A stretch of 58,596 nucleotides of DNA from the NCBI GenBank assembly GCA_964035545.1, contig CAXIUT010000243.1, positions 1 to 58,596 of the forward strand. The letters run 5' to 3'. Of the stretch, positions 2,767 through 51,331 are shown piece after piece. The position numbers and the translations under genes are program-made. Each line of letters opens with the position of its first letter. Position 1 is the stretch's first letter. The DNA is from Bugula neritina (taxonomy: Eukaryota; Bryozoa; Gymnolaemata; Cheilostomatida; Bugulidae). The notes beneath the pieces are model-generated. The model did no database searches. It saw only the letters and a list, made by a program, of their open reading frames with translations, and was not told where the DNA came from.

Positions 2767-3784
2767 TCATTTATTTTTGAAAAGAACAGCATAAATACTT
2801 CCCAAAACCAACAACGCCCCAGCAAACATATCAGATTGACTTATTAATGATACCTAATCGTACTATAAAAATATCCAATCAGCACATTCAACTGAATCAT
2901 TATAGTAGATACTCCAGAATTAGTACCAATCAGCAACCCGAAATTAAACGTCAAATTGGCAAAAGCAATCACAGATCCACTATAAATATAAAGATATATA
3001 TCGAATTACTAAGATCTAGTAAACAAAGGTATCTTATTGTCATTAACATTAGATAGTGTCATACTCATGCATGAAAAAAAGAAATATCCTATAAGCGTAT
3101 TAACTAGCAACAACTAAGTAACAGAAGAATGGTGTTTGCTAGTAATAACAACTCCATAAGCAAATATTAAATTCAACACTATCACTCCCAAACAATTGGC
3201 CACAAACACAACCAACTAGTCAGAACTGTAGTCAAAAGTACTAGTAAAAGATGAAGTTCCCTCGATCAAACTATAGACATATCGACCATTAATCACAAGA
3301 ACCAGTCCAACGATAGCAACGGCAACAGCTTTAGCCTGTCCAGCAGTCACAGGCGTATGATATAGATAATGATTAAACATAAAAACAAATATGATGGAGC
3401 TGCTTGACAGGGTATAGAAGACAGGGAGAGGAAGATACATTTGAAAGAAAGCAACAAATAAACCATTAATCGATGATATCATTGCCCTTACCACCAGTAT
3501 TTTAAAATCTTTAGAATGAGTTAAATTAAATGATCGAGTACTTAGCATTATTATCGTTGTCTGGATAAATATTTGAGAAGTATAGCGAGAATAGTTCATC
3601 TATATCGGACTCGTCTTCTGCTCATTTGCATATATGTAACCTGATACCCATAGCAAACAAGATATTGGCATGCAAATAAAATTTGATAAATTTGTATTTG
3701 ATATAAATGGCAACACCTGAGCCGCTTGTATTGGTCCTGGTTCTTCTAGGACGAAAGAGGAAGGAATTTGTCTTTTTTAGGCAT
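2767..3784 (-). CDS. EamA/DMT-family multi-spanning transporter
   Basis: The protein has about ten hydrophobic segments with the drug/metabolite transporter pattern: a first half with 'MYLPLPVFYTLSSSSIIFVF' and 'AVAVAIVGLVLVING', a second half ending in 'FAGALLVLGSIYAVLF'. It resembles SLC35/EamA carriers; the substrate cannot be told. Two 23-nt introns (3618-3640 and 2863-2885) bring all the pieces into one frame. The start is uncertain. The ATG at 3784 leaves 61 bp after the V-ATPase stop. An alternative ATG at 3849 with a 40-nt intron would overlap that stop codon. The TGA at 2767-2769 is the only stop in frame. Confidence 0.65.
2863..2885 (-). other. 23-nt intron in the EamA transporter gene
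   Basis: A GT...TATAG segment. Removal gives IQLNYDEVSLISQSDMFAGA and the normal last membrane helix. Confidence 0.75.
3618..3640 (-). other. Probable 23-nt intron near the start of the EamA gene
   Basis: A GT...GCAG segment. It joins the exon starting at ATG 3784 to the main frame. The segment can also be read through in another frame, so confidence is lower. Confidence 0.5.
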
Positions 3785-3845: not shown

Positions 3846-6329
3846 TCATGTAAATTTTTTAAAAGTAAAAACGTTGAATAGATAGCCTTTTCCTTCATAA
3901 AATTTGTTTTGAAACTAGACCCAATGCAACCTCAAAGAATGCAAAAAACATTCCAAACTGTCCATGCAAATCAATACTCCAAAAGTAACCATCAAATAGA
4001 AAGGAAACACCAAAAACAACTACATAAACATACACTTACACTAATAAGACCAGAATATCCTTTCTCCAATTGTTTCAAAACAGTCAACTGAAAGATAACC
4101 GATGATAGCTGGGCATGGGCAAGCGAAAGAGCCCACAAACGAAGATAAGAAGCCGTATTAGATACACTTCCCAGCACAAATTCAATAGTTTCTATAAACT
4201 GATGGACTACTATCTACTTGAACTATTCTTCTTAGTGCTATTCAGCTATATTATCAAATATTTACGTAACTTTCTATCATCATATTTTTTTAGTTACTAA
4301 CTAGAGTATTTGTCTTCTTTTATTTCTTACATTTCTATCTAATCATTCTATTCAGCCAACTATGATGACTGAACACGTTCTCTTCTTTTCTATTGCTCGC
4401 CTCTTTGAAAGTAAATGATGAGAGGTTTGGCTGCCAGCATGAGGAATACACAATAGGGCAACTAGGATAACAGTTCTTTATAGACTTCTTTCAGCAGGCC
4501 AGAAAAGTAGTTAATTTTATTTATCTTTAGCCATATTGACATAGATAGCAATCATAGTGGATATGATGGATGGAGCTTGATCAGTTTTTCCAGTATAATC
4601 AGTATTCCACTTATAGACAATAATAAAATCCATATAGACAAAAGTACAAGACATGAATATAATTTGCGGGATGGCAAGAGTAAACAAATCGACCCATTTA
4701 GACTGTCTAAAATTGTTATATATTTTCAAAAACAACCCCAACATCATATGAACCACCCCGAATATCACAGCCAACTTCATCTTAAGACTATTAGTAAACG
4801 ACATCTCATTGAATGCCACCTTCCAAATAGAGTCAATTCCGATAGGAAAGATACAGTTATCAAATTGCTACACAAATGATTTCTCTCCCTCTACTATAGT
4901 ATAGCAACTACTAAACACTCCAAGGTTTAATCCAAAAAACTAATTATAGATCAACCCGCAATATCCCATAAAAAATATAACAGTCCAAAACCATAGATTA
5001 GCCTTCAGTATTATCAACATAGGTATCGCCAGTAACATATGACCGATATCTCCAAACATAACTCCAATAAAAAAACCAAATGTCACGATATAAAACGGAG
5101 CAGGATTTATCTACGTATAAGATGGCACTCCATACGTGTTGACTATCTCCTGAGGAACCATCATCATGCAATTTGTATCAAATTTACTCGGAGGCATCTT
5201 CGGACTCTACAGCACATTCAAAGTCAAAGGAGGCAGGTTCTTTTTTGTTGAATTATCAGTGGCAACTACTTGGTAGGTATATATAGTCTAAAACGGGCGA
5301 GGGTCTTTGTTACTTATGTTGTCGATAGGGCACGATATATCTATCTTTCCTTTTTGGTGTAGAGTTCGATCTAAGAGAGCCAACTAGTGGCCGATCCCTA
5401 TCTTACTTCTGTCATTTTGAAGATATGTTTTCTTATGCCTTAGAAAGTTAGATCTTACATAGATTAGATATCGCTTATTCTTTGTTCTTTTCTTTGAAGT
5501 TCTTGTTTGAAATTACTCTTTTTTTGAACCATAACCGTACAACTCAAACAAGATAGAAGTTTATCATTTTAGATATAATTACTCCTCTTTCTCCTTTAGG
5601 AAAAACTACCAAACAAGCAACCTGATCCTTCAAAGCCTACTCCGCCAAAGCACGATGCTTCCTAGAAGTAAAATATCTATTTATCTAATCAATAGATATA
5701 TCAAGTTCATGAACCCAACAATTGCCCCTTGTTATCCTGAATATACTTCTTTTAAGCATAAGTAACTCCTTCCTTTTTATACCTACACACTTACTCTCGA
5801 ACATTGCACTTTTGTCATGCTCATCAAAACTTTCATACAGAGGATTCGCATCTCCTTGCAATAGCTGGATATTATCATGTTTGTCAAGAGTCACCAATAG
5901 ACTCATCTAAAGAACCAAATCGCTTATTTTCTTAGTAAAGTTTTAAACCTAGTGCATCTGGCTAGACAAATAGGCATGAGTATTAAGAACCTCCTCTTCA
6001 ATATGGTTGATATATAGATATCCTTATATCTTATTTTAAGCTATTATCCTCCGAAATGATCTCCATACCGGTCTGGTATCTTAGACTCCTTTCAGTTAGA
6101 AATTGATCCAACTTTTGCACTGACCAAGAACCACCTTGATTGCATCAATTTTAGCTAATAACTACTCACAACGCCGATAGTTTTTGATGAAGGGGTTTTC
6201 GTAGTTGATTAGATTAGATTCAAAGGCGATCTTTTAATCTTAGCCGAGCTGGTTAAGAACATCCCATGCTATTTCAGTAGGAACCAAAGCTTCACAGTAC
6301 GTCATCTTCTAGGGAAAGAAATATGCCAT
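3846..6329 (-). CDS. ATP6V0A: V-type H+-ATPase subunit a (V0 membrane stator)
   Basis: This is the 100-kDa subunit a of the proton pump that acidifies vacuoles and endomembranes. The N-terminus ([19 protein letters not shown], then RRCEEL) matches the soluble half of the family. The C-terminal membrane half contains [20 protein letters not shown], which holds the essential proton-path arginine, and ends near [17 protein letters not shown]. The glutamate in HWVEFQNKFY is a TAG codon and that in RRCEE is also TAG, supporting UAA/UAG = Glu. A 20-nt intron (4020-4039, GTAAGTGTATGTTTATGTAG) restores the frame just after the [12 protein letters not shown] region. At least one more frame change lies between 4.8 and 5.7 kb. 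Length is about 820 residues, normal for the family. Confidence 0.92.
4020..4039 (-). other. 20-nt intron in the V-ATPase a gene
   Basis: GTAAGTGTATGTTTATGTAG. Removal joins GYSGLIS to the last membrane segment of subunit a. Confidence 0.92.
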
Positions 6330-6439: not shown

Positions 6440-9435
6440 TCAAAACAAATTATAAAAGTAGTTGAAGACATCTTCACTCTATTTCTTTTCTTCCTAGTAT
6501 TTCTTTATTATCCCAGCCTTCTACTTCTTAATACTCTTTTATCTCTCTTGCCTTAGAACCTAAGAACCCTTAAATGCATAGTTCGATAATGAAAACCCAA
6601 GAGGTTTCTATTTAGAATCCACTAACTTCAGTTTCTTTTTTTGCTCAGAAGATTATGATGACTAAATACTCTCAAATCCAGGCTTCCAGTTGTATTGTTT
6701 AAGGTCCTTAAATCTACTGACTTCAACTTTATTTATTCTCTTCTTTATTAGCTAGTCATCATCCGAATCAGATGCCTCAATCTTTGATCTTCTTCTAAAT
6801 TTTTAAGGCAGAACTAATTGCTGACCTTTGTTACCTTTTTGAACTGGTTTAGTCAACTCTTGGTCTATTTACCAATTATTAGTTCCATTTTTATTTTGAT
6901 CCTTTAATTTTTTAATAGTAGTATCCTTTTTAGTTTATTTTTTCTTATTATTAGCTTGTTTGTTATCATAGTTTAGAGAAGTGCTTCTTGTTTTCTCAAA
7001 AGAAAGTTAAACTTGTTTCTTAGCTGGCTCTAAACTTTTCCTCTGGACATTATCTTTCAACCCACTAGGTTAAGTATCAAATTTAAACATCTTATCTCCC
7101 TTCAATTTATAAAACTAATCGAATCCAATAATACCTTCTTTGACAAGTCCTATCTTATACTCTTCATAATGATTTTTAGGAAAATAAACCATAATTTATC
7201 TACAATTCTGATGCATATACTTATAGTAATAAAGATAGTTCTTATGATCTCCAACACATACAGTCACACCCTTATACTTCTATGTAAAATTTTAAACTAC
7301 TATCACCTTCAAAATCACCTTCCCCGTCATACTGTCATGCTCAATACAAGTTCGAATACTATTTCGATATATCTACACATCTTTTTTGTTGTATTCATCT
7401 AACCACCTCGATGAAGCCAGTTCTACATCTCAATTGATTCTTGTAATGGCTAGACAGACCTAACTCCTTTTAAATTGGTTTATTTTGCATTACTATTGGA
7501 TTTTACAAGGTTTATGTCTTTTTATGAATATTACCATTGTTTATTTGCAAAATAGTTTTGATATTTAACTGCCCAATAATACAACCAAAAGTTTTTCAAC
7601 TAAAATCCTAAAGTCTTAACACAATTATTTAACCTTTTAAGAAGCACCAAAATATCTGAAGCTTGTCTTCTCATTTCCCAATACTCAATATGAAATTTCG
7701 ATAACTAAGCCTGAACCAATACAAAAGCCTTTCTCTATGCAGTTGAAATAGCCTCCTTTATAGCATACTTATTTCTCTAGTTAATTTGTTTTAAAGTTTT
7801 CCTCTCCTCTATCTTCGATGTATACTTTCCAATTTCTTCACATTTACATAGAGTCATTAGAAAATGTCTAGGTGATTCCATTTCTGCTATTTCAGATATG
7901 ATCAGAGATATCGATCTAACTTCTACTGCATTTTTGGATATACTAATAGAAAGAGGTCTAGGAGAAACTCTATTACTATCTTCTGTAAAATTGACAATAT
8001 TGAGATTTGAAAGTGTTCTAGCTGCTTTAAGGCAATTAATTTTGATAAACTGTTATATTTATCCAGTAATTCCATAAGTTTTAGGAGATTTTTTCATTCT
8101 AATATAGCAAAAACTATTAAAAAAGTAAGTCTAAATATCTTATAATGATAAAATAGAACCCAAAGATATTTAGGCATTGATGTGTTCAAGCATATGGTTG
8201 AATAGTTGAGATTAAAGATTCTAGAGTTAAAGTTTTGAATTATATCGATTGTAATTTGATTTTTGAGTCATTATTACCACTGTTCCTTACGTATCGAAAC
8301 GTGGTCGTCCTGCTCTTCCCATCATCTGCTCTATCTCTATTCTTGTATACTATTCATAGCCTTTAGCTGATCCTCGATAGCATTGAGTTGATTTGATAAT
8401 AACAAGTCGAGCTGGTAAGTTTATACCCATTGATAGTGTACTAGTTGTACAAAGAACCTTTATCTTCAATTAAAGAAATAGTTTTTATACAATATTGCGG
8501 TCCTGAAATGAAAGACCAGCATTGTGAAAGGCAACTCCTTGAGGAAGCATTGTTTGAAGTTTTGAATTAACGACATTTTTTGAAGCCTGAATCAAAGACA
8601 TCAACTGCTTGTCATTTTATATGAATTATCTCTATCGCATTTGAGTTATTATTTGTTCACAAGCTTGTTGAGTTCCTTTCTGAGTTGGACAAAACACTAA
8701 AGTTCCCTTCTTTTCACTGTATTGCCTCACTGCTTCAAGAAGTTTATAGTTAAGAAGTCTTTCAAAGGTAAATGGATTGCCTGAATGAGCAAATCCAGCA
8801 ATAACAGTTTTAATTTGAACTGGTCTATACTCCTAGCCAAAAGTACAAATCGTTGATTTTGGACATCTGAGCCATTGACCTACTTAATTGATATTAGGAA
8901 TAGTAGCTGATACAGCAATAATCCTCACTTAGGAATTCAAGCTCATAATTCTGCTGACAATTGCTTCAAGAGTAGCTCCTCTTTCTTCATAATTAAGCAT
9001 ATGAATTTAGTCAATCAGAAGTAATTTTATCTGTTTGAGATAATCCAAGTTCTGTCTCGAAAGGTAGTCTATCTTTTCAGGAGTTCCAACAGCAATGTGA
9101 CTGTAAAGAAACTTATCCATTCCATTTTCCAAAGAATCACCAGTCACTTCTGACACTGAAAGAGATTTTGAAAATTTAGAATTCCAATCTGTATATTTTT
9201 CATGACATAAACTTTTAATTGGAGCTAGATACAGGCATATAGGACTAGGCAACTCTTTGTATTTGAGAATAGACATCTAGAATATAGCTGTTTTTCCTGA
9301 TGAAGTAGGTGCTGAGACTATCATGTTGTAGTCTGTTTTCATAATTTTAGGAAGACATGCTTTTTGAATAGGATTGAAGTCTTGGAAGTCAAAGAAGCCC
9401 TGTAGTGAAGGATACTCTCTTAGAATACTTTGCAT
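6440..9435 (-). CDS. HFM1: Meiotic crossover helicase HFM1/MER3
   Basis: This is a superfamily 2 (Ski2-like) DNA helicase needed for meiotic crossovers. In order: a Q-motif-like start (REYPSLQGFFDFQDFNPIQ), Walker A SAPTSSGKTAIF, motif Ib, Walker B/DExH LLLIDEIHML, motif III VSATIPN, motif IV LVFCPT, motif V STLSMGINLPA and motif VI QMMGRAGRP. A winged-helix/Sec63-type region follows and then a C-terminal part (VILKVIVVENF) that aligns with HFM1 rather than with ASCC3 or SKI2. The catalytic glutamate of DEIH is a TAA codon. Under the Gln reading it would be the dead DQIH form, so this residue supports the Glu code. The C-terminal 170 residues are basic and low-complexity. A frame change near 7.43-7.50 kb is probably a short intron that I could not place. 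The N-terminus is much shorter than in vertebrates. Confidence 0.88.
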
Positions 9436-9535
9436 TTAATTATAGAGTCAAACAGTCACAACTCTTTTGAGTCAGATTCAGCCAAACATTTATAATATTA
9501 ATTTTTAAGGTATGATAATTATAAGTTAATTGAGA

Positions 9536-12976: not shown

Positions 12977-15900
12977 TCAAGGTTAAAGTAGTACTCTCAA
13001 AGTAGGTGCATGTTTGATCAAATTGTCTCCAACTCCCATCACTAAAGTAAAATCAATAAACTGGCATCCCTATTCTCCTATCTCCTCTGCTATCAATGAA
13101 TGAATAGTCTTCTTAAACAACTTCTGCTTCTCCTCTTTCTTACTCTACAAACTCATCACAAAATCAGAATATATCTGAGGACCCTAAGATAACGTTAAAC
13201 CCTTCACCTTTATCTCGTATTTCTACTCTATACCATCAATCAACTCTCCAATCATCTTATCTTTAGCCAAAGGACCTATACTCCATCTCTACCATATATT
13301 AGTATCCAACTTATCATGAACTTTTATCTTCTAAACAGGACCAGGTTCACCCATAGTCAAAGACGGGACAGCTAAATTAAGAAAAGCATTTCTTAGTTAT
13401 TCTAAAGGACATCCTCTCAGATATTTTACCAGTTAAATAGTTTGAAGAGCAGCAACACAACTAGTAGTAGTAGATAATGCTGGAGTAATTCTACCTGCTT
13501 TCAGTTTGACAGTGATCCAATCCATTTAATCAAGTTTATAATTACGAGCTCTTAGGTTTGCCATTGAGTATATCAAATCGATGTGACCATTTTGATCCTA
13601 ATCTTTTTAGAATTATTCAGGTTTTGATTCAATATGTTAGCTATTTTCTTTAATTTATTCGATCATCTTTATGAATTTATGGTATAAATTATGTTCATTT
13701 TCATCTTAGTTAGGTTAAGTCATCAATTCAGCAAGCTATGATTTTTACTTTTTTTAAACCTCCTTTTAAGTCTACTTTCCTGTTGCTTAATTATCAACTT
13801 CACTAGCCAATTATTTAGCCAATTTATCAGAAGGCTCAAATGGTTCTACTTTCATTGAACTAGCAGTTAAAGTGATTTCCTCTCTACGATTATTTTATCT
13901 AAAATCTTTAGGATAAGGAATTCCATATATTTTACTAATAAGCACTGCATAAGATGAGATAAAGGTAGAATGTAGGGGATCTTTGGGTAGAATTTATGAT
14001 ATAGGAACAGGAGGTCTTTTAGGTAACTTCCAAAATGGTTTTCCATCTTTAGTTTGAGCATCAAGGGGATAAGTATAAAGAAGTTGCATTACATCATTTC
14101 TAAACAACTGATAAAAGATCTTGGTAGCTATATAAATAGAATCTTAAAAGTTAGTCGGTCTAGCATCAACAAGTTTAATACAATCCTTCAACATCAAAAT
14201 ATCAGATGGTCCCACTACATACTTACCACTTTCATCTAATAACTTTTTAAGAGCCTTAGGATTCAAAGTAAATTCTTTGCCAAATAGATCTCTAGCCCAT
14301 TCAACACAGTGCAAAGTCTATTAAGGAAACATTTTCAATGTACAATGAGGAATATCGCCTTGAGCGTCATTGGGATCCTGCATATTGCCATAAGTTTAAG
14401 TTTTAAATGGAACTATCACCTGCACATGACCTTTAGAACTAAGAGTACCACTCTATAATAGTGGCCTTTTAGTTTATACGCATCGACTATCCACATATCT
14501 CCTGGCCTATACATTGTCTAAAGCATTTGTAACGATTGTCAACTCCTAGAAAAACTCATTATTGAATACATCCTTTGATGATTATGACACCTTGTCCAGT
14601 CGAGGTTTTATATGACCCTTTAATCTAGGATTCATCTGGGTCACTGCTGCCGATGCTGTTGCACTTTTAGGTTTACGTAGATGTTTTTATCTGAATAAAA
14701 ATTGTCTATTTAAATTTGAATTTTATATATGATCTGGATCAGTTACAGTAATATTGCCATTTCCTGTACCAATTTCTAACATAGCAAAATTTTTCAATAG
14801 CTCACAACCAATAGCACCAGAACCAATCATAAATACCTTTGCATCTTCAAGTTTACCCAGCATATCAGCACCAATAATCTTTCTAAAACCATCTGTACGA
14901 TTATCAACAGGAGCTCTCTTCAAAATATATTCCTTCCATGCCTCTTATTAATCTGGAATAGTTTAGATAATTTATGAAAATTCAGCTATAAAGTACTGAT
15001 TGATAGGAGTATATTTGCCAGTAATAGCTTTGAATGCTTATTGAGCAGTTATTCCTCCATAGAAAGCACAAATAGATCCAAAAGTACCTGAACAAGTATA
15101 ACTAAATGCTTTACAATATTTTATCTATTACTAACTTAGTTATGTCCTTCTTTTCTTGACTAGTTAAATCAATTTATCTGCATCTTTTTTATCCCATGAA
15201 CAAGGCATCTTATGATTTTATTTAGTAAAATCACTTAGAGATAAGAATAGTTGATGTAAAAGTTTTAATTTGTTCATTTTTGACCAGTCATAGATCTATA
15301 AATTGGAATCAATGTTTTGAAGTTAAATGCATTCTTCTAACGACTTGAAATCAATATATTTAGGTGTTTTTATATTACAAACAGTGCCTTATCCTTCATA
15401 AGGAGCATAATCTTAAGTATTACCTATCTCAAAACTAGCACTATTTATCACTTTTATTTTATGTAAAGTATTATTTATGCTCTTATCACTATTTAATGAC
15501 TTCATTCCCTTAACTCCTGTTATTCTGACAGTATCTCCATCTTAGTAAGGATGCCTGAGACCTTTCACAACTCGAACTACTCCTTTCTCACCTATACTGA
15601 TATCCTATATCAAGACATCAACTGTATCTTCTCCATCTTTGTCAATCACTTAAAATTTCTATCCAAAATCATTGAATATTTGACCATAAGGACCATAACA
15701 ATCAACTGATAAGAAATATATTTTGTTTGCTCTACAAAAAGAATTGATTTTGATTTGTTCTTCGAGTGATCTTTCAGTTGTTATGACTACTTGGTAGTTT
15801 TTCAGGTTTTAAAGATCATTATGTTTATATTAGAATTTAGTCATTTTCACATAATGATTTAACTACTGTAATTTAAAGAAAGAACTTTATAATCTTGATT

Positions 15901-18900
15901 TTCCCACATCTGATTCTGATAAAAAGAACTGACCACTAAGATCAGAATAAGACACATTTTTATCATCCCAAACAGCAAACTATCTACACCCACTCAGCAC
16001 AATGTTCTTAGCTATTTCTACGCCCAGAGATCCAAGTCCTAACAACACTATTCCAGCCTTACTTTGTTTAGTTACAGCCTAGACTCCCATAGCTCCAATA
16101 TATCGACTCCACCTATCTTTAACCTTCTCATCATTGATATCTAACTACAACAACTAACCTTTTTATCCATAACTAACATCAATTTCTTATATTTGCAATT
16201 ATTATTTAATAACTTATGACTTTTAAACCTTCTTTTTAGCTTTTTTAGAAGAATTATCTTTTTTAAAATCTCCTTGAGTGGGTGGAGGAAGTTTATTTAG
16301 TTCAGTTTATAGTTATTGAATACATTTAGCCATCATTGTTTTATATTATGTCTTTGATTTCTTAAATGTATTGCACCAGTTGTAGTTATGATCGCTGACT
16401 AAACCATTATATGATGCCTCTCTTTTCTAGGCCAACTTTAACCATCTATTGCATTCATGTAAAATTTATTATTTCTTCAAATAAAAATGCCTTCTAATGA
16501 CTGATTAGAAACCTTTTGGGGGATTCTTTATGTTCTCAAGCATTGCATATTTTACGTTAGAATATCTTACAATATTAGCATAGGCTTCATTCTTTTTCTC
16601 GCCTTCAGGAGTACCTTGTTCATGTTCGAATCCAGGTTCGTTAAAGTAGATATCTTCACTCATAATAATTGATTGAATCGATACTAGAACTTGAAGAAGA
16701 GTTGATACCTTTGCATCCCAGTTTTACATAGCCTGACCTCTCCATGTTCCCAGCAAACTTAAACATACCTTACCACATGCATATAAATTAGGATTAAATC
16801 TGACTTGACCACTACCTGTTGTCATCAAGTTAACTTTTGGAGGACTATTAGGATAAGTATCCTCGAAATAGACATCAAAAAGGAAAGCTCCATGACCATA
16901 AGGAGTACCATTAGATCCCATAATCAATGCCTGCATAAAATCAACTCTTTCCTTATCACATCGAACATAGATAGCATTAGTATGATCTATTGGCAAAGCA
17001 TGAGATATATCTGCCAACTCTTGAGCTAATCTTATTGTTTTATCAACTGGAGGTTTATGTCCTGTTTGGTAATTGCTTGCATAGTGATGTTTACTTATCT
17101 TGTTGGAGGAGTCCTTCATATCGATGTAGTCAAATCTAAGATCTTTCATAAGTAGGGGATATTTCTTGAGCAAAGGAAGTTATAATATTTTTTTATCTTA
17201 TTTATCATCTTGATGATGAGTTGTTTCATATTAAGAAACAGTTTATTCAACTAGTTAGTATGTAGAAATGATTTTTTTGGCAATTTATTCTGAAACTTTT
17301 TCAGAAGCAGAGCCAGTAAGACATGATATGAATATTTTTGAAGTGCTAGCTAAAGTTTTCAAAAGAGAAAGCAAAGATTCAGATTGTTTGGGTTAATAAC
17401 ACTTAGGAATAGACATAAGAATTGATGTAAGACTCTTACATCTAGTTATTACTTGAATGAAATCTAGTTCTCCTTGGAATAACTCTGCATATTTAGATAT
17501 TTAGAGTAGAGATCCTCCTCTGAGAGATGATTATATGATAGGAAGAAGAGAACTTTCAAGTGTTTGATTCAATATCTCAGGAGGGTAGTTGAAGTCGCTG
17601 CAATCGAAAAATTGTTAAAGAATTTTAAGAAGACTTAGTATCTGTTAAGATGTTTACTTTCTAGCTTATTATTGACCAGTAACATCCCACTTTTGATTAG
17701 CTGAACTATCAGTTCCATATCCAACTCCTTGTTTTTTAACCAATTTTGTTTTGAAGTCTTACTCTGATGATTTCTTTTGAAGCATAGCAGGAACCAGTTC
17801 ATCTTATTCGATACTTTATTCTTATATTTTAAATCTTTTAGGTTCCTTAGTGATCATGAATAGTCTTTCTAGCATGATTTTATAAAATCCACTTTTGATG
17901 GCATAATTTCTAACAATTTTAGCTTGTTCTCCTTTAACAGCAAAAACATCTTTGATAATTTAATATAATTCTTTTACTGAAGACTTTTATTTTAGAAGCC
18001 ATTTTTTGTTATCTTGCTTATCTGGTAAACTCAACAATAAATCAAAAAGAAGTAGAACATTTCCTTGCTTATTAATATAGAGAGAACTAAAAACAGGAAA
18101 ACATGAATAACTCTACAACTATTTAAGATATTGACCCCATATGTTAGATTGTTATCGATTCGACCAGTTCTTAACACTGCCAGCAAGAACAGTTATCATT
18201 TTTTATAACCCTTTTTTCTATTCAAAAGCCTTAAAAATAGTTTATTGAGAAATAAAAGAATCAACACTTACATTTTATTTTGAAAGAGTTTCAATACTAC
18301 TACTAGCAAATATTTATGAGGCCTCAATTTATAATTTAATAAAAGGTTATTTTTGTTCAAGAAGTACTTATTTAAGATTGACATTTAGAGAAAGTTTTTT
18401 ATCAGTAAGATAATTTTTAACATTGATTTTTTATAGATCTGCAGAATTGACTTTAAATCCTCCAATATTGATTTGTTTAAGTAATTAATTGATTTTCATT
18501 TATTGAGGTATAAAATAACATCTTTATGTGGTTGATTATTTAATAGGTAAAACTCCTCTATATTTTTAATCTAATATCCAAGGATTATCTAGATTAAGTA
18601 AAGTAGTATTAGTTAATAAATTTTTCTACCATTAGTTCTACTAATAAACCTTATATTATTCAGGCAACACACTGATAGTTTATGTATTTGATACTGATAT
18701 TTTTATTTTTCCATCTTTGAATTCATGCTTTCTTTATTTTTTTGCAACTATGTCCCATAAAATACCTTTACATAACTTATATTTTTTAACATCAGTTGTT
18801 TTTTCAATAAATAGCAAGTTATGTTTCAAGTTAAACTCATCTATACTATCTATCGGTTAATAATGTTGGTTTTAATAGGTAATAACTTTAAGACTACTTT

Positions 18901-21900
18901 TGATAGGTTTGATTTCCAAGATATCAGTAACTTGTTTAAGATATTAATGATTATTTTTCCAAACAAAGAGTAATGGTATTCCATTGAAAGCATTAATCAA
19001 TGGGAAAAAGAAGCTATGAATGAAGAAGTTATGATGTACTGGATTAAAATCATTAATACTGGTCATTAACTGAATTAATATCTAACTGAATTCATCTTGA
19101 CAGGAAGTATCAATACATGTAGTTTGGAAAAAGTTTATAAACAGTTTCATTGTATCATTATTATATTTTATTAAAATACTTGTTGTACTTTTAAGTAATT
19201 ATGCTATTTTAATTGGTGCTCTTTTCTCTATCAATTGTTATTTAGCATTTTTATTCAATATAAAAGTACATAATAGTTTCAAATGATGTAAAGGTTAGTT
19301 AGATATCGTATTTGCGTTTTGATTTTATGATAAAATCTATAGTAGTTCTTAGAATATTTATACAACATAATTTTTAGATGAACAGTTTTATAATTAAACA
19401 GCATAATAAGGTAAAACAGCAGCCAAAATAGAATAAAATTTACTTCTTTCCGACTTATTCATGATTTAAGTGATTAATTTTCGAATATCATAACGATATA
19501 TAGTAGGAACAGTTAATAAAGAGTTAATCAATGAAAGATAGAGTTATTGTGTATTATTTTTTGAAGTTTAATACTTTTGAAGAAGCATTTTAATATTCTA
19601 AAAGTCAGCAAAACCTTCCTGCATTTTATTTTACACAGAATAACTACATAATCTTAAACTTAATGTGACAATATCAATAAATTCTGAAGAAATACTATTT
19701 AATGTATGAGCTAATAGCTTATTTATATTTTATTTAGTAAGTTTACTCAGAACAAGACTTTTTACTAATTTGGAATTAGTTCCTTTAGATTTAAGTAAAT
19801 GCTATAAAATATTTTATCCTTATTGATTCAAAGCTAACAATAACTCCTAAATCTGTTCATTGGGTAAAAGGTCATTTAATACTTGAATAATCAATTCTAG
19901 TTTTTGGTCAAAATAAGGTGAACTAAGGACTGCTCTCAAGTCTTTTCTATATTTCTTTTGACCCAAAAATCCTAAAAGAGTCAAGTATATTGATGTATAG
20001 TCAGGATCATCAGTAGGAAGAGTATCATATCCATTGATACTGATAAATGAAATGCTATACATTGCTCCTTTTTTACTCTTTTGACTATTTTAAAGGATCT
20101 AACTTGCTGAATTTAATAGTGGATCACTTAATCTGAACTATAAATTTTTTAAAGGAGATAAACCAATAGAAGATAGTTAATTCAGATTCAATCCAAAGAG
20201 CTTTACACCATAAGATAGGTAAAATTGGTCTTCTAAAGGAACCATCTCACCTATTTTCAGTTGTATTTTTTAATTACCTCCAAAAAGATCAACTCTAGAT
20301 GGTAAAATAGCAGTCTTATTTTAAACATGATCATTTAGACAAAAACCAATGACAAATTTAGTTGGAGATTGAGCTGTCTAGCAACTTATTTTGATGTTTT
20401 TGTGGGTAATTGGGACTTTAAAAGCTGGATTTTTACTTCCTCCCTTACCTGTTTGAAGATCTTTGACAGAGGAAACATCTTTAACTTCAAAATGTTCTGA
20501 TAACTAAACTTATTTAGTTGGATTCCATTTATTAGACTTCAATGGTCTTTTGAGTGTACTTGCTTTAAGATCATTGATAATAGTTGAAATAAGAGGATGC
20601 TATCCTCCAACAAGGACAGGAGATAGAGACCCTGGAGTTAAAGTTTGCGAAAGCAAAATTGTAGCTCCATGATGAAGTTGATTAAAAAGAAGATGTCTTT
20701 TAGTCAATGATATTCTTTTGGATTGTTTGATTGATTTTAATGCCTATGAGTATTTACTAAGGACTGAGGCAGGATCAGAATGTTTGACTAGTCTAAGAAT
20801 TTGGTCTATGAGTTGTTTGATAAGGTAGTAGTTAGGAGATTTGTTTGCTGGATTGACTGATATCAGTTAGTAATCATTATTATTGAGATACCAGTTAATA
20901 AAAAGATCTTCATTGGGCAGTTCTGCTCCTTCTGGAAGAATCTATACTACTTTAAGCATTTCAACAGCTGCTTGTAAATTATATAAATTTGAATCATTTG
21001 TCATTTTTGCTCCTTCTATTCCTCCATAATTACATAATTCAGTTATGAATTTTCCTATTGTTTAAAGAAAATCATAATGTAGAGTAGTACACTTATCTCC
21101 CAGAGTTAAAAACAATTTAGCCAGAATATTTTTATTTTTCATGTAGATCTGATCCAAAAAAACAGCAAATTATTCAGAATATTTAGGCTTAGCTGCAGTT
21201 ATAAAGAGAATGCTATGCTGTTGTGCTAGGACCTAAGGAATATCACTATGTAAAAATTGATGCATTATCATGTCAGTAGCTTCAGTACATGAACTAATTA
21301 CTCTTTATAGTTGCTACCAAATCACTTCTTATTGCTGGAATATAATACTCACTACATCAAGATCTACAGGATTACTATCAGAGGCTCTTTCAACTATCTA
21401 CTAGATAAGAATCTACAAGCGAGGTTTAGCACTGGGATCAAGTACAAGTTTGCTGAGGTTTTTGTATGATATAGAGTTCAGGAAATGATGATAGAGATCA
21501 TCAGTAAGAGAGGTAATATAATTAAGAATAACTTTGTTATTTATCCATTTTTATTCTTTGATAAAGTATTCAATGATCTATTTATGACTTTAAGTGAGAG
21601 GAGACATTTTAATAAGAAGTTCTACCCATTTTTATTAATATGGTACTCCTCTTAAAATCAATCTAGTCAAAGATCTACATAAATCACTGTTATTTAAGTC
21701 AAGAACGTTAATTAGCTGTTCATAGGAAAATTAGATATGACCTAGTGATGACATTTCATATTAGATATATGGCAAGCTTTTGATTAAAAGACTTATTTTG
21801 TGAGAAATAGCTTTAAATGCTAAAATTTTAATTGGTCCTTTAGCTACTTCCAAAATAGTGCTAAAAATCGTTTAACAAGTACTATCTTCTACATTAACTT

Positions 21901-24900
21901 TTAAATTTTGAAGTTGTGTTAGAGTCAGAGCTATTACTGTATAGAGATAATCTAGAGTTATTTTAGAACTAAATACTTTATTTTTGAGAAGCTTTTTTTG
22001 AATATTAACGATAGAATCAAGATCATTTCTGTTTATTTTATCTTAAAGAGATGCTTGTAGTATTTTGATATCTTACTTATAGGGTGTATAATAGATATAT
22101 TCAATATTTTTTCCTTTAGAAATTGAATATTTTTTCATATGACTTGATGACAAAGAAGTCAATGATAAGAAAAACATATCTTCAGGATTAAATCCAAATA
22201 ACTCATCAATATAATGTATATTCTAACCTTTTCCAATCGAATACCCATAAATTTAAGGTAAAATATCAACTTGAGACACTTTATTATCACTAATAGAACT
22301 AATAATGCCAGTTTAACTAAAATGTAGTTCTACTTATAGGTATTCAGCTTATATTTGATCAGTATCTAATCCAAACATATTTAGAGATTTATTTATTGAG
22401 CTACTATCTTCTTGATAAGAAATTTTAGCTAGCTGAATCCATTGGTGTTAGTGGATAGTTCCAGAACTTACCAGTTTTTTTCCTTGAGCCTGCAATCGAT
22501 AGATACTATAGTAAACTTTGGATGAATACTATGATTTCTATATTTTAAGAGTAGCATTAGTTATTTGATACTTTGATGGCAATTTCATGATTATTCTTCT
22601 GCTATAGTCACTTTTAAATACAGCTATTTCGCATTTAATCAGTTCCTATTCGAATATTTTATGGCTTTATTCTTTGTTATTCTAGACCAAGTTAAAATAG
22701 TAGTTACTATAGAATTATTTTTCAAAGTAAAGATAAGAATTTTAACTCCCAAGATTTCTATATTATTTAGATCTTTTAGTATTTACTGTTTCAAGAGCTA
22801 ATTTCAAAATCTATTGGAGGATCTAAGGAGATAGCTTTTGAATAGTTTGCTATAAAAACTGGAAAGGTAGAATTGGTACTGAATTAATTGATTTTATAAA
22901 TTAAGTAAGATACTACTGTCCATGTTTATTACTCCATATTTTTTACATTATCGATTTATAGTATTATTTCCCTTAGATATTTTGAGAAATAAAGACCACC
23001 ATATCAATGAACTGTCTCATATATTTTTGTTAATAATTATCCAAAGAAAAAGAACAAGAACGAGATATATATTTCAAAAAAGGCTACATATTTTTACTAG
23101 CATAGTTCGATGATAGATATTTTATGAGTATATTTGGTTTCTTACATTCCATTTACTAGAATATATTGATTTTAGTTGATAAAGATAACTAAGTAGAATT
23201 TAGAATTTAGAATTTATCTGATATATTTAGAGATAAATCTCCTTTCTATGATATTTGAATTGTGTATTATAGCTATATTGTATTAGTTGAGATAGGTTTA
23301 AAAGATAAAACAAAAACTCTTTGTTTTGATGATTAATTTATTAAATTAGATAGTTTTTGAGAATATTCTCTATGATATACTTATTGCGATACTGATGCTC
23401 CATAAATAGTAACTGAACCTAACTAAAATGGTAATTTCTTAATATTAGTATACTTTGGTTCTACAACAATTTCCTTCCAATAAGATTTACTATTAATATC
23501 TATAACAGCTTCTTCTTTATCCTCTTCAAATTTAAAATTATATTTTTGACTTTTATTTCCCCAGCTATCTCTAAAATATATATAACCTTCTTTTATATAG
23601 TTAACATTCTTTCTATTGAGACATCGTTTTAAATTCACTTTCTTTGTCTGAACCAATAGTCCATAGAGATGCTTCAGCCTTATTCCATGAGGATAGTTGC
23701 CTAGAAATGATCCATTAGGTGAAAAAATAGATGAAATTGAATAATTTTTATTAACTCCTGGCGGACCGTGCTAGATAGTAAGAGGAATCACCTCAGAGCA
23801 GTTATTAGGTTGTTCAAGAAGAGATAGATCTATTTTTATGGTTATTTTTTGAACTTGAGATGTCGATGATGAATTTTTATCATTTTTATCAACATTTGAT
23901 GGGATAATTTATCCTTTAATAGATCTAAAAACATCTTTCAATTGAAAAGGAAGCTATCTAGGAGGTTATTTGATCAACAATGATGACTATTTTAAGTATA
24001 AATTGTCTAGTAAGTAGTTAATTTATTGAGAAAAAGGTTTATTATTTTTAAGATAAATGAAATACATATTTTTATTAGATTTTGACAAGAATTATATCTT
24101 TTATTTAACTTCCAAAGAATCTAAAATACTCAAAGAAGGATGATTACTCTAATTATACCATTTTTAATAATCAATATACTCCATCGAAGGTTCATGCTTA
24201 AAAGAATTCAAATCAACAAACTAATTCTTTCCATAATAAACATATTTTCTCAACTACGATGGCACTACACCCAAAACCAATAAAGTATTATTAATTGACA
24301 CCAACAATCTGGTATAAATCGTATTCATTTCTACCATTGACACCAACTCACCACATATTTGAGTTTATTCCTTATTATTCTATTTTTTCTTCAACTCTTT
24401 TCTTTCACTATATATCCATACTAAAGCTTCTTCTATATTACCAGTATTTTAGAGAGCTCTAATAGCTATTTCTTCTTCAATGCTAAAGACTTTGACCAAC
24501 TCTTGTATATCATTTTTACTAGCTACATAATTTTACTCTTCCTTTCTTTTTTGTTAAAGAGATGATGTTAGAATTTTATACAAACAAGATCCATCATTTT
24601 GTAAATACCTCAAATCAGCTTATTGATAGGATTATACCAATACTCTTTTATTTATACTTTTGCTATTTATAGTCTCTCTGAATATCTACCTTATCTATCT
24701 GCCTAGATGATAAATGATAATGGTATTATCTTTTTTAGATAGAAGATAGTTTTAAGTTATTTATTTTATATCTCCTTAAATATTTACTTGATTTGAACCA
24801 CATTGAAGTTACAAAAGTTATTTTTTTATATTTTTGTAGCCTTCAAAATATTAAAGAGCCTATCTATATCTTCCTATATCTAGCTCACAATGCAAACTCG

Positions 24901-26035
24901 GATTAGGAATAGTTACCCCAATCTAATACAAATAAGGTCGAATAATAAATAATTTTAGTAAAAGCAAACGATAAAGGTCAACTCTATCTGACTACTATTC
25001 ATCTAGCTGGCATAGTAAATATCGAATCCATTCGAAACAATTCTGCAAACTAATAAGATGACATAATTAAAATAAACTTTTCTATCCTCTCCAACTTTTT
25101 AGTTGTAAATACTATTCTTTTGAAAATAAATTTAAGACTCCAGATTTATGAACAGCTGTCTGAGGAAAATAAAATTAATAAGTTGAAGGGTTTCTCCTTA
25201 TGAGTTTAATTTTATTATTTTACCAAACCAGTAACATTTTATCTTAAGAAACTTGAATTAATTTGGTTAAAATAGGATCTTTTGGAAGTTACTATTTGAT
25301 TTATTGAACTTTATTTGGTTATTTTAAGTGAAGAAAACCGAAGGGATTGAATGACGATAGTTAGTTGATTTTGGTAGTTAGAAATGGACTGAAAATAAGA
25401 GTATTTCCTTTTTTTTTGATAGAGGCACAAGGAAATATTTTATATTTTTTTATTTAGTTGCTAATATCAACACTATTCTGTTTATTTGGTTTAGTTCCAT
25501 TAATCCAGGCTTCCATCTTATTGTCTTTAATTGTAAAAGAAATGGTTCTAGCAGTTGAAGAATTGAAATTCATGAGTTGATATGACATTATCTGGTTGTC
25601 ATTCATAGTACAGATTCCCAATTCAATTGAAGAAAGAGATTGAGGAGAATACCATTACCAAAATGAACCAGTCTGCACTTCACTACAACTTCGTATTATC
25701 GCCTATTAACTACTCACTGCTGCAATATTGCTCTGCACATTCCGAAGTACCTCACCCTCTATAGTCACCAAATGACCCATCAAGGGAGGACGAGGATCCG
25801 TACTTGACAAATGAATCGACACCTTTTGTTATTCACTGCCAGTAGACTGAACTCTAAGACTCCCATCGCGAAGGAAATAAGTGCGCTGATGACAAGAGTC
25901 AAAGAAGTAGGCCTCCGAGTTGAGTTGAACAGGAAGAGTGGCTTACGGACGGAGCATAGATACGAAATAATTATCAATCATCCAACTATAATCAAAATAT
26001 AGCTCTTCATACAATAAATCAGAATCAATTACCAT
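12977..26035 (-). CDS. Giant E2-E1 fusion: BIRC6-like ubiquitin-conjugating + ubiquitin-activating enzyme
   Basis: One frame of 4,352 codons without TGA; I checked nearly every line in phase. Residues ~1-2950 form a large, mostly helical body with a UBA-like segment at ~505-540 (AIRALENTGNIEEALVWI); no BIR domain was seen. Residues ~2995-3190 are a UBC domain of BIRC6 type (VRCDKERVDFMQALI, VRFNPNLY, GKVCLSLLGTW with catalytic Cys3091) followed by the BIRC6-specific RRHFYLKKEEILHECNRWL. After a Lys/Glu linker (~3250-3300) a whole E1 follows: inactive adenylation half (LGLGSLGVEIAKNI), first catalytic-cysteine half, active adenylation half (IGSGAIGCELLKNFAM, NSNLNRQFLFR), catalytic Cys3898 in IPHCTLK, and a UFD tail. 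Predicted mass is about 500 kDa. Start: ATG 26035 shares one base with the upstream stop; ATG 25981 is the alternative. Inference: E1 charges the E2 in cis. Confidence 0.9.
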
Positions 26036-27290: not shown

Positions 27291-27365
27291 GGGGTTGGGG
27301 TTGGGGTTGGGGTTGGGGTTGGGGTTGGGGTTGGGGTTGGGGTTGGGGTTGGGGTTGGGGTTGGG
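27291..27365. repeat. Internal telomere array, (GGGGTT)12GGG
   Basis: Twelve perfect GGGGTT units plus GGG, 75 nt, in the orientation of a right-hand chromosome end. It lies 68 bp from the start of the CH-domain gene on the left and touches truncated PurB codons on the right. Its length matches the terminal arrays (77 and 69 nt). Translated, it gives meaningless Gly-Trp repeats in the PurB frame. Confidence 0.97.
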
Positions 27366-28682: not shown

Positions 28683-28768
28683 TATAAAAAATGATATTGT
28701 AAATTGATATTTGAATTAATATTAGTTGATATAATATTCAATTAATTTGAGAATTACAATCATTTGTT

Positions 28769-31700
28769 ATGTCAGAACCCGCCAAACAATCTCTCTTCTC
28801 TCCAGTCTAAAACAACAAATAAACCAACAAACAGCCTCCTATGCCCCCTCCTAAAGTTCCAAACAACCTACTAGGAGTGCCATCAAAATAAACTTAAATG
28901 CTTAAAAGTGTGACAGTGCCAAGTACTTTAGGCAGCAAAAAGACAGGCACATTCAATATGTCCTAACAAAAAAAATAAAACAAACTAGAACAATCACAAT
29001 TACTAAATAGTCCTTCATCAACTACTAAAGTAGATAAATAACCAGATACAATAGCAAAATCAAGAATCGCATAAATAAATCCACAATAAATGAGCAAAAA
29101 ACCATAATAGATCAAAAGATAGCCAAAAGATTTATAAATTTTAATGCAAAAGATGTTTTTTAGTGAAAAGATAAAAAATAATGAAGAAATCAAGGATAAA
29201 TAAATATAATATTTTGTTAAAATATTTGCATAAATGACTTCAACATAAACTAAATGTAAATAACATTTAAAAAAACTATCAACTCCTTAAGGGAAAAATA
29301 AAGTGTTAAAAATAAGATATTTTGCCAACTAAAACGACTAAAATATTAAACAATAAATATATTCAGATATAATAAAAGTTGTTGAAGAAATAATAAAAAG
29401 GTGTGGATATCTAAGAGTTTAATATTGTCTTAAATTAATCTAATAATATATTTCTATCAATTAATCTACTTTCTACAATGGTAAAATTATCTACAAAGCT
29501 TTCAAGTAACCTGATACTCTCTTTGAAAATTCTCAAATATTTGCTAAAATGGTTAGATAAATCGTCTACTTGCAACAAAATATCTTTTTGGCCTTCTAGA
29601 CCTCTCTTGATCTGCTGTATAAAAAAAAATTAGATCAATAAAGCAATCCTTTTATGGAAAAAATAGTTAAATTTGATACTTTAAGTGCTAATCTTGGTAT
29701 GGGCATCTGGAAATGTTTCTAAAATGTAGCATAAGCCTAACTATCTCAAGAAAAACGGTCAAAAAACGTTAAATACAGTTTTTAAATCAACATTCTTAGC
29801 AACTGTCTCAACTTGGTATACAACCTAAATCGTTCATTCTTCACTATTTAAAACACTAAAAAGCAAATCCTCCCCATCATATCAACTATAATACCAAAAC
29901 TATAAACAGACGACACTGTTTCCCTATCAGCAATCGATAGCCTGGTTCTCAACCTCCTCCTGAAGCATCCATTTAGCATCTCAACCATTGGAGCCAATTC
30001 ATAGATCAAACAACTCTTTCGCTATCAAGGAATGGCCTCAAGATACTAATATATTCAATTATTATTCACTAACTTGGATTTAAGTATTATACCGCCTTTA
30101 CAAGGAATCCAATAAGCTCTATTTTTATAAAATTACATAAAACTAAATGACCAAATCTCAACCTACTAGCCGTAGAAACATAAATTCATCTTCAATTCCA
30201 TCTGCTCCATCTTCACTCTTCCGGCATCCTACCTTAAAATAAAAAGAAACACCTATCCACATATCTACAGATACATCGACTTCACCACCTAATCGATCAT
30301 GGATGATCAAAATGAATCTTTTAGACAACATTAATACAATAGCAATCAATAAATTCTAAAATGTCTACCCATTTGCCGTCTAACAAAGCTGATCTCATCA
30401 ACCTGTCTATCTTCTAACGAACAACTCAGTGCCCTTCGATTCAGATAGCTGATAAAAAACGATAACTAAGTTGTTAGTATGTTATTCAGAAAGAGTCTAG
30501 AAGTAATCAGTTCTAATTATATGAGTTAGTAATAGCTATAAATATACGATCTTAGTACAGAATATGTTTATTAGTTCTTTTTGAGACTAATAATATCAAA
30601 CGGATGTTACTTCTAATCAAAATAGCATTTGATAAGACAATACTTCCATTCCATGTAGCAGTTCTATGTAGCCCTCTTCACCTCACACATCTTGAAATAC
30701 ATCAATACAGCCAATTATCTACATCTGAATCTACTTGCACTGTCATCCATGATAGAATCATCAGGATGTTTTAGCATATGCCAGTAGATAATATAATAGA
30801 TATCAAAATGGAACAATCAAACTATAGATGTCATCGACTGGTAATACAAATAATCAACTAAAAATAAATTATAATTTGCTGTTTAAATGATCCTCAACTT
30901 CAAATAAAACAAATTCAGTTCACTCACTGCTGCCAACCATCTTCTGTTGACCATTTTGCATAACAACCCTTATTTTTTATAAAACTAATTTATCAAAACA
31001 ATCACTTACCTAATAAAAAAAACAGTAGACAGCTATCATAGTTCAGTCCTATAACCATACGCAAAAACACTAATCCACACCTTAAACTTCCTATACAAAC
31101 ATCCCTCATCACTGAGGATAGTATAACCATACTTCAACTTCAAATTTATAACAATATATCTCACAAATATCCTCTCTTTTGAACAAGTAAATGAGACTCC
31201 TAAAATAATAAATAAATATATGCGGGGAAGAAGGTATGGGTAGATAAGTACAGCCGTTAGATTAATAAAATATATGACTTTGAACTATTTGGAATAAAAA
31301 GATGATGGAAAATAAAGAATACCTTTATAAGTTAAAAGATTAATATAGATGGAAAATAGAGGAGGTAGCTTTCAACTCGTATTCAAAAAATAAGCCACTT
31401 CCTATACTGTAGGACTACTCATTATACTACTCAGCAGATAGTTCAATCTAGATTAAAAACTAAGACTACAACACACAAAACTAAAATAATAAATATACCA
31501 AGTACTAACCAATCTAAATATCATAAACACAAAACTACAACACGACCCCACCCTAAAGATCCATCATCTCTACAACCGCCATCTCTAGATCTAACTGAAC
31601 GACAACTTAAAACTAAAATAGCATACTCTATAGCAGATAAAATACAACCCATCCCACCAAAACCTATAATATCTCATGAGTTGGAACGAATACAGGCCAT

Positions 31701-33853
31701 ATCTTAAGAAATAACTCTTTTATAAATTAAAAAATAAATAACTATCACTAGACACCCTCAAAACTAAAACACATTTCATAAATATCTTCTGGATGAACTA
31801 TCATAACAAACACATCAAAATGAATATCTAAGAGTGCTGGAGCTATACCGATTGGTACATGAAATCCATAGATTTTGCCATCTTAAGTCTAGATCTCTAA
31901 GACAGCTACTAAGTAGTTGAAGATGTGTTTAGAAATTTGGTTAAATTGAGTATCAATATCAAAAAAACATGCATTAAAACCTATCTTAAGTTTATTATCA
32001 ACTATTATTATATATTCTTTTAGTTTGGGTTATACAAAAATATCAAATAAACATCCAACTTCTGGTAATACTACTAATAAGCCATCCTTTACTTTTTCAA
32101 GATAAAATCAATAGTAAGTAGATAATAATTTTCCTTAATGATAAAATAATAAAAAATAGCAAAAACACTCAAACTCTTCCTCATCACCATCATCAACTAA
32201 ATATAAAAAATAAAAAGAACCAAACATTCAGAACTAGCACTCTAAATAGTTGTTTAACATGGCATCTGTCTATTGATTGATCTCAGTTCTAATCAACCCG
32301 TACAACTCAACAACTGGCTAGAATAAATCTTAATAGATTTTATGAATTCTAATATAGAAGGTTAAAATATGACAACAAACTAGATCATTATTGTGATTTT
32401 ATTGCATTCTAAATTAGACAGATAGTTGCCTCATAACTACCTCACCTATTCCAATCCTAATTGGTACCTTCTGTCGAATATAATATAAACCAGTAGCACT
32501 CTTTCTTAACTTCTTTTATACTCTCTACCTTAATCCTATGAAGGACACGCAGTCTTCTTCATCAGTTTGTGTCACTACTTCCTCTCAGCAACCAAAAATA
32601 ACCAGCTAGCCCTCATCTAAAACAAACACCCAAAATTGAAAAAGAATTATATCGAAGTCTTGAATACGTTATTACATAAAGCCATTAAAGACAACAGATC
32701 GTATCATGTTATTTGGATAGTTGAACTTTTATCATAGTTAGTTAGCAACTAAAATTTATAATTAAAATAAAATGTATTTTTTGATATAAAAAATATGATC
32801 TTTTCAAGTTCTGTTCTACATATGAGAATCACAACGCTTATGAACCAACTTGGAGTCAAAGTAGGTTTCAACATGAAATAAACTCTAGGATGCTGGAATA
32901 GCAATCATAATTAGACTAACAGCATAACAATGGCTGCAAAACAGGAACTACTTGCCTTGTTGAGATTACTAACTCTTATTTCATTTAATGGAAATTACCA
33001 AGACATAAATACTTTTAGCCAATCAATACAAGATAACAACAACCCATCTCTAGAACAAGTATAAACATCAATACTATACTCAATGTTGAGCATTGTCCCT
33101 CTTTTATAAAAAATAATAAACCACAAATAAAGCACATTGATAGCAACCACATAAACATAACAAATCATCAACAAAATATCACTTGACACTCTCTACAACA
33201 AAAACATCAACTCAAGTGGTGTCAACTAAATCTCAAAAATGTAAATCCACGAGATCTGGCCCAGAGACACCTCAGCGCTCGACCTCTTCAACGAAATAAC
33301 CAACTACGAACTCATCCACATCTGCTCTCTGTGGATCAGTCGCATAGTATAAACCAACACCCGACACCCTCTCAACCCCATCATCCACAAATACTAGTCT
33401 CTAGATAAAATGCTCAACCACTTGGTGATGTTGATGGTCGAGATAAGTTCAAAGTTATAGAATTATGACACTTTATAAAAAGTAATAAAACCTTTGTTTT
33501 AAAAATATGATAAAAATATTTATCATTCGCTAATAATAAGCAAATAAATGTTATTTACCAACTGTAATACACTCAACTCATGCATTGATTTTACTTTTGA
33601 TGAAGTAGTATAAAAATTAACTCAAACCACTTTCACCTTATATAAAACACTTGATAGGGTATTCAAAGAGTTAGAACATGCTTATATTAGAGTTAAATCA
33701 GCATCTACTTTTAACCAGAAAGTTAGAAATTTACAACCAATTTCAAAAAGATTAATGTCCCAAGATTAGGCCTTTAGCATCAGTGATAAAACAACTATGA
33801 AAAATAGAAGCTAGTTTTTCAGTAATAATCGAACCAGAACCATCCACTACTGA
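28769..33853 (+). CDS. Large all-helical protein of unknown function (1,694 aa)
   Basis: I do not recognise this gene. It is a single intronless frame of 1,694 codons ending in TGA, 86 bp after PurB. Residues 1-130 are a Pro/Lys/Glu-rich, probably disordered leader. The rest is a long series of predicted amphipathic helices (for example IDSLVLNLLLKHPFSIS, TYTVGLLIILLSREFN-like, LLALLRLLTLISFNG), as in HEAT/ARM solenoids or large nucleoporins of the Nup188/205 type. No membrane segment, zinc finger or catalytic motif is visible. The long length and solenoid look suggest a scaffold. A nucleoporin assignment is only a guess. Confidence 0.8.
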
Positions 33854-51016: not shown

Positions 51017-51331
51017 CCCTTATATTTTCATAATTAATAATTTATTTAATTTATCAATTAAATCTCGTGAAAATTTTGTAAATTTATCAATATTTAAGGT
51101 GAAAAGTACAAATTAAATCATATTAGATCTTTTACAATGTAAACTATTTCATTTTAGTGAAAAAAGAGATCATAAGAAAAAGAATATTTGAAGTTTGATT
51201 TTACAATTTTGATTCCTTTTAGCTGATTTTAAATTGTATAAATATTTCTATATGGTTGTTTAATTGATAAATTTAAAACTAATGCTTTTAATGCTGCATA
51301 TATCTTAGGCGCTAAATTCATTTTTAATTAA
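51017..51331. other. AT-rich intergenic region, no gene seen
   Basis: 315 bp between the coiled-coil gene and the claspin-like gene, one of the longest gaps in the window. No coding frame, structured RNA or repeat is convincing on either strand. It probably holds the 3' end of one gene and the promoter of the next. Confidence 0.5.

Follow-up and report, generated by a model that had tools for sequence, protein, structure and literature searches.

The stretch of DNA analyzed here (hereafter "the window") is a contig of 58,596 nucleotides (CAXIUT010000243.1) from the Bugula neritina assembly GCA_964035545.1. On its minus strand it carries a gene that joins a BIRC6-type ubiquitin-conjugating enzyme and ligase (E2/E3) to a complete ubiquitin-activating enzyme (E1). 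The reading frame (12977..26035, minus strand) begins with an ATG at 26035, encodes 4352 residues down to position 12980, and terminates at a TGA stop at 12977–12979. Within the frame there are 179 TAA, 80 TAG, and no TGA codons, whereas the remaining five frames across this region each have 91–168 TGA per ~4351 codons, so the openness of the frame is not due to chance. No intron is required, and from residue 121 to the C-terminus, stretches of the protein match its relatives in order. The preliminary description of this locus had already recognized a frame free of TGA and introns, and its claim that no in-frame Met occurs from ~16290 (residue 3249) to ~16110 (residue 3309) agrees with the ATGs present in frame, which from residue 3150 to residue 3340 fall solely at 3165, 3234, 3235, and 3316. 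The codons TAA and TAG are read as Glu. In the conserved part of the protein, at columns with agreement among half or more of 124 relatives, TAA/TAG coincide with Glu in 20 columns and Gln in 1, which rules out a reading as Gln, and against 17 named relatives the counts are 17 for Glu and 3 for Gln. The relatives' Glu at these columns agrees with the genetic code of peritrichs (NCBI table 30). Many relatives are longer, so part of the N-terminus may be missing.

The window starts with CCCCAA repeats and finishes with TTGGGG repeats, which correspond to ciliate telomeres at both ends. The assembly contains 295 contigs (215.8 Mb), of which the window is C232. Among 20 contigs sampled by their first 300 bases (C10 to C290 among them), 13 of 19 small contigs (10–80 kb) start with CCCCAA repeats, unlike C1 (35.6 Mb), and accordingly the assembly probably holds many ciliate minichromosomes. 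Contig C4 (24.8 Mb) contains an intron-split E1 whose best match was UBA1 out of four E1s tried. Based on the telomeres of the window and the small contigs, their lack at the start of C1, and the UBA1-like E1 of C4, the window is interpreted as a minichromosome, capped by telomeres, from a ciliate that lived alongside the sequenced organism or on it. When positions 15500–17500 were searched as DNA against the assembly, the window itself was the sole match. A search for the UFD family found C4 and missed the UFD of the window itself, and thus demonstrates no absence.

The E2 part lies within a region (residues 2632–3252; 16280..18142, minus strand, as are all features of this gene) that is homologous to the C-terminal end of BIRC6 (4108–4782 of 4838 in Mytilus) and takes in both the UBC domain and the tail helices, while the BIRC6 C-terminal scaffold adjoining the UBC was matched over 606 columns (E 1e-100). 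The UBC domain spans residues 3003–3127 (16655..17029; PF00179, E 3e-19) and contains the catalytic Cys3091 in GKVCLSLL (16763..16765). It is followed by a linker predicted to be disordered (residues 3257–3296; 16148..16267), where the predicted local distance difference test score of the AlphaFold model falls below 50, and then by a complete ubiquitin E1 (residues 3300–4352; 12980..16138) with a TIGR01408 score of 844 bits (cut-off 750). Aside from the UBC, Pfam detected the E1 FCCH, 4HB, two ThiF halves (the adenylation halves), and SCCH, the last of which bears the catalytic Cys3898 in IPHCTLK (14342..14344). The UFD has no Pfam match at E<1; it is placed at residues ~4243–4351 (12983..13309) with limits from the AlphaFold model, in which the E1-like fold continues up to the last residues and the structural alignment reaches model residue 1146–1148. 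The two catalytic cysteines are located where the preliminary description had put them, the BIRC6 C-terminal helices and the two adenylation halves are present, and the UFD it listed is recovered by the model and not by Pfam. Across the whole window protein, no BIR domain (PF00653) was found by Pfam at E<1, and for this reason we refer to a BIRC6-type E2/E3 rather than an inhibitor of apoptosis protein.

The remainder of the scaffold is strongly diverged. In single-sequence searches, the first 2500 residues matched none of the other proteins ahead of residue 2401, and profile searches afterwards did match stretches ahead of it. Residues 121–221 (25373..25675) are collinear with residues 177–278 of the Tetrahymena fusion P0001 (profile alignment, E 1.7e-5; a shuffled control had no match), and a paralogue of the latter, P0041, matches SPRY below threshold close to its N-terminus (E 0.0058). 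Residues 1084–1266 (22238..22786) form a scaffold stretch common to other fusions (profile alignment, E 2.1e-8). Residues 1866–2116 (19688..20440) show a weak collinear likeness to BIRC6 3138–3407 in Mytilus numbering (probability 46%, E 2e-4), approximately at the position of the CBM32 jelly-roll, whose loop is given as residues 3172–3182 in mouse BIRC6 (PMC10827748), although the Mytilus and mouse numberings are not reconciled. The rest of the scaffold is too diverged for comparison with the 31 armadillo repeats.

The same join is widespread amongst ciliates. A search with residues 2950–4352 returned 118 proteins of ~2400–7600 residues, 82 of which (P0001–P0082) have a UBC followed by an E1, and the best 120 of 4923 proteins from an E1-only search contained a further 49. 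In total, 131 of the 238 database proteins examined (132 of 239 with the window) share this order. The named sources include Tetrahymena utriculariae, Tetrahymena malaccensis, four Paramecium species, Pseudocohnilembus, and Ichthyophthirius, as well as Moneuplotes crassus (Spirotrichea) and a Platyophrya macrostoma transcriptome (Colpodea), which amounts to three ciliate classes; P0006, P0013, and P0136 also carry transcript-assembly names. Tetrahymena utriculariae and Paramecium tetraurelia have three fused proteins each, one of the latter (P0066) being incomplete. The gene covers at least 90% of the contig in 35 of 77 entries with a stated contig size, as expected for single-gene nanochromosomes. 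After removal of seven incomplete sequences, 125 complete fusions (window included) remained, and in all 125 both catalytic cysteines are invariant, as are N-P-N-L-Y of RFNPNLY and S-R-Y-I at the E1 start. The gap between the UBC and E1 envelopes is 84–127 residues (median 92). A single polypeptide of E1 and BIRC6-type E2 is thus strongly supported by sequence comparison, with the join present in named species of three classes, in transcript-derived proteins, and on contigs filled by one gene; this upholds the join proposed in the preliminary description, in which its spread through ciliates had gone unnoticed. A scan of viral contigs with the E1 alignment yielded three remote loci (29–38% identity over 66–162 residues) that were not useful.

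Sequence similarity and phylogeny support the assignment of the window E1 to the UBA6 type. Its PDB matches rank human UBA6 (593 bits) above yeast Uba1 (575) and human UBA1 (534), and the named E1s that come next behind the fused proteins among the matches listed are UBA6, such as those of Balamuthia, molluscs, and amphioxus; typing of other E1s against PDB classed P0178 as UBA6 and P0204 as UBA1. A third search, with oomycete and dinoflagellate E1s as queries, added 120 E1s, 19 of which were used in a quick tree of 55 sequences (12 sampled fused, 18 UBA6, and 25 UBA1-type). A tree of the E1 part against UBA1 and UBA6 had been suggested as a check in the preliminary description, and here the fused E1s group with UBA6, split from the UBA1-type sequences at 100% support in the Shimodaira–Hasegawa-like approximate likelihood ratio test (SH-aLRT). 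Moreover, a clade of the fused E1s and the 19 added E1s was rejected by the approximately unbiased (AU) test (p 9e-6). With a support of 66, the fused clade may branch either beside the other UBA6 or from among them. Other UBA6-type E1s, by name, come from the amoeba Balamuthia, molluscs, a nemertean, and amphioxus (P0178, P0183, P0188, and others), while a review describes UBA6 as restricted to chordates and echinoderms (PMC12355090) and other papers as restricted to vertebrates and sea urchin. The tree and these names point to a greater age. Four oomycete proteins (P0083, P0084, P0252, and P0253) are annotated with E1, myosin-head, and FYVE domains, two of them with ankyrin too, and may be either genuinely fused or the product of erroneously merged genes.

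Residues of the inositol hexakisphosphate (InsP6) pocket of UBA6, as given in PMC9391358, are variably retained. Where human UBA6 has K706, Lys or Arg occurs in none of 25 UBA1-type E1s and in 16 of 18 UBA6. Among fused E1s it occurs in 11 of 12, and the window, with Ile, is the exception. Of eight basic pocket positions, the window keeps one in one alignment and two in another, compared to 1–7 in fused E1s and 5–8 in UBA6, and 99 of 131 fused copies keep 4–6. The UBA1-type E1s have none of the eight in all eight rows of one alignment and 0–4 in another. Position 800 likewise depends on the alignment, with Lys in 112 of 131 fused E1s versus Glu in 7 of 12. Because the count varies with the alignment, the pocket serves as supporting evidence and does not define UBA6. 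The window copy has lost most of the basic pocket in the SCCH that is a property of UBA6, and, judging from these residues, it is expected not to respond to InsP6.

Mammalian UBA6 and BIRC6 serve a single pathway as its E1 and its E2/E3, as demonstrated for LC3B (PMC6863627), and preparations of BIRC6 are highly enriched in UBA6 (PMC10827748). That the fused E1 is of the type that partners BIRC6 in mammals strengthens the idea of a one-chain cascade. The E1 is attached where the BIRC6-type chain ends, adjoining the very UBC it would charge. We consider it likely that this widespread ciliate gene, comprising a BIRC6-type E2/E3 lacking BIR, a flexible linker, and a UBA6-type E1, places the UBA6–BIRC6 cascade in one chain that charges its own E2. 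The E1 part would adenylate ubiquitin using ATP and then hold it as a thioester on Cys3898, from which it could be handed to Cys3091 of the tethered UBC, either on the same chain or on the partner in a BIRC6-like dimer. The scaffold may hold substrates up to the charged UBC, which would pass ubiquitin to them. From kinship and the conserved active sites, we infer these steps, including transfer in cis, the putative E3 activity, and the presumed substrates, and translation as a single chain is presumed for the window organism. What the sequences show is one reading frame that is conserved, the two active sites, a linker predicted to be flexible, and the kinship to UBA6 and BIRC6.

An error of assembly or gene prediction has one feature of the window in its favor, namely an internal array of ~12 TTGGGG telomere repeats (27291–27365, plus strand) on a contig already capped at both ends, which may mark either where two minichromosomes were chimerically joined or another site of telomere addition. 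However, the array is outside the fusion gene, which lies whole within the left part (1–27365), and 131 further proteins, drawn from many assemblies and some of them transcript-derived, carry the same fusion, which rules out an artefact, including the assembly deletion at the junction that the preliminary description had considered; the likelihood of an error is therefore negligible. It is also possible, though improbable, that the E1 half is a fast-evolving ciliate UBA1. In earlier trees without protist UBA1s, the fused E1s were not placed, and in a small tree of this kind a clade of fused and animal UBA1 was not rejected (p 0.37). In addition, the folds of UBA6 and UBA1 tied in comparison with the model of the window E1, and most of the InsP6 pocket is lost in the window. 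Against this origin stand the SH-aLRT split and the AU rejection once the 19 E1s were added, together with the distribution of Lys/Arg at the K706 position, to which the window is the exception.

A more serious alternative, to which we would give perhaps one chance in a few, accepts the fusion and assigns the tether another purpose, with the E1 charging free E2s or a dimer partner and the UBC also being charged by free UBA1. The prefix GILK01 is found on both a free UBA1-type E1 (P0342) and a fused UBA6-type E1 (P0136), such that one transcriptome (possibly of a mixed culture, and not claimed to be ciliate) seems to have both, and other E1s may exist beside the fused one. The linker is predicted to be flexible, and Drosophila BIRC6 was trapped with UBA1 in a solved structure (9qgg, according to its title). 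On the other hand, the fused E1 belongs to the type that serves BIRC6 in mammals, and the spacing from UBC to E1 remains between 84 and 127 residues across the 125 fusions. Alternatively, one gene could supply two enzymes, through cleavage of a polyprotein in the linker or through separate production of the E1 by internal initiation at Met3234/3235. The predicted disorder and lower conservation of the linker, and the in-frame ATGs at residues 3234–3235, are consistent with such a scheme, whereas one frame and a similar linker length over three classes are not expected of a cleaved polyprotein, and we regard it as slightly less probable still than a UBA1 origin of the E1.

Both halves of the ciliate protein belong to known families, and it is the combination of a full E1 with its own giant E2/E3 in one chain that is highly unusual. 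Cap2 of bacterial cyclic-oligonucleotide-based anti-phage signaling systems (CBASS) consists of a single adenylation domain and an E2-like domain, not of a eukaryotic two-half E1 with SCCH and UFD. The window differs from that make-up in its two ThiF halves and SCCH, its telomere-capped chromosome, and its ciliate code. Cap2 is nonetheless alike in having E1-like and E2-like domains in a single chain (PMC12355090), and is described as conjugating cyclic-nucleotide synthases, not ubiquitin. The preliminary description knew of no natural E1–E2 fusion of this type. Open-access searches, which did not reach most subscription papers, likewise turned up none in eukaryotes, and the statement requires amendment for the bacterial Cap2 (PMC12355090). 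Compared to animal BIRC6 (BRUCE/Apollon), itself an E2/E3 hybrid, the ciliate protein has no BIR found and an E1 added at the C-terminus. Its E1 resembles UBA6 (the ubiquitin/FAT10 E1) in domain order, fold, and tree placement, and differs by sitting behind an E2 and, in the window copy, by its reduced InsP6 pocket. UBE2O is a similar giant E2/E3 hybrid with a related extended UBC and was found with UBA1 in solved structures, according to their titles. Seven unfused BIRC6-like giants (P0093, P0104, P0106, P0111, P0113, P0115, and P0117) contain SPRY, ZZ, or F5/8 in varying mixes, with no BIR in their Pfam lists, and three are from named non-animals (Planoprotostelium, Hondaea, and Durusdinium). 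BIRC6 may accordingly have started without BIR.

Elsewhere in the window, a helicase piece (7330–9447, minus strand) has DEAD, Helicase_C, winged helix, and Sec63 domains and is perhaps a relative of MER3/HFM1 or Brr2/Slh1. Three TGA-free frames with TAA/TAG read through are located at 28751–33850 (plus), 35408–40822 (minus), and 51227–54265 (plus); these frames of 1700, 1805, and 1013 codons have no Pfam match at E 0.01.

The fusion of a UBA6-type E1 with a BIRC6-type E2/E3 in ciliates suggests a self-charging ubiquitin ligase and a partnership far older than animals. In its full form, this reading would place a whole E1–E2–E3 cascade in each polypeptide, charging itself in cis and insulated from free E1s and E2s, with a UBA6–BIRC6 pairing, otherwise known in animals only, that goes back to the divergence of ciliates from animals and amoebae or earlier, and an ancestral BIRC6 that lacked BIR and hence a caspase role; we view the odds of this full form as about even. 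The protein can be seen as a natural "Rosetta stone" fusion, in which two cooperating mammalian proteins are a single chain in many ciliates. The pairing would date from far before animals, contrary to reviews in which UBA6 is confined to chordates and echinoderms. Moreover, the fusion offers single-chain material for the study of E1-to-E2 transfer and of the charging of a giant E2/E3, and its presence in Tetrahymena opens the question to genetic testing.
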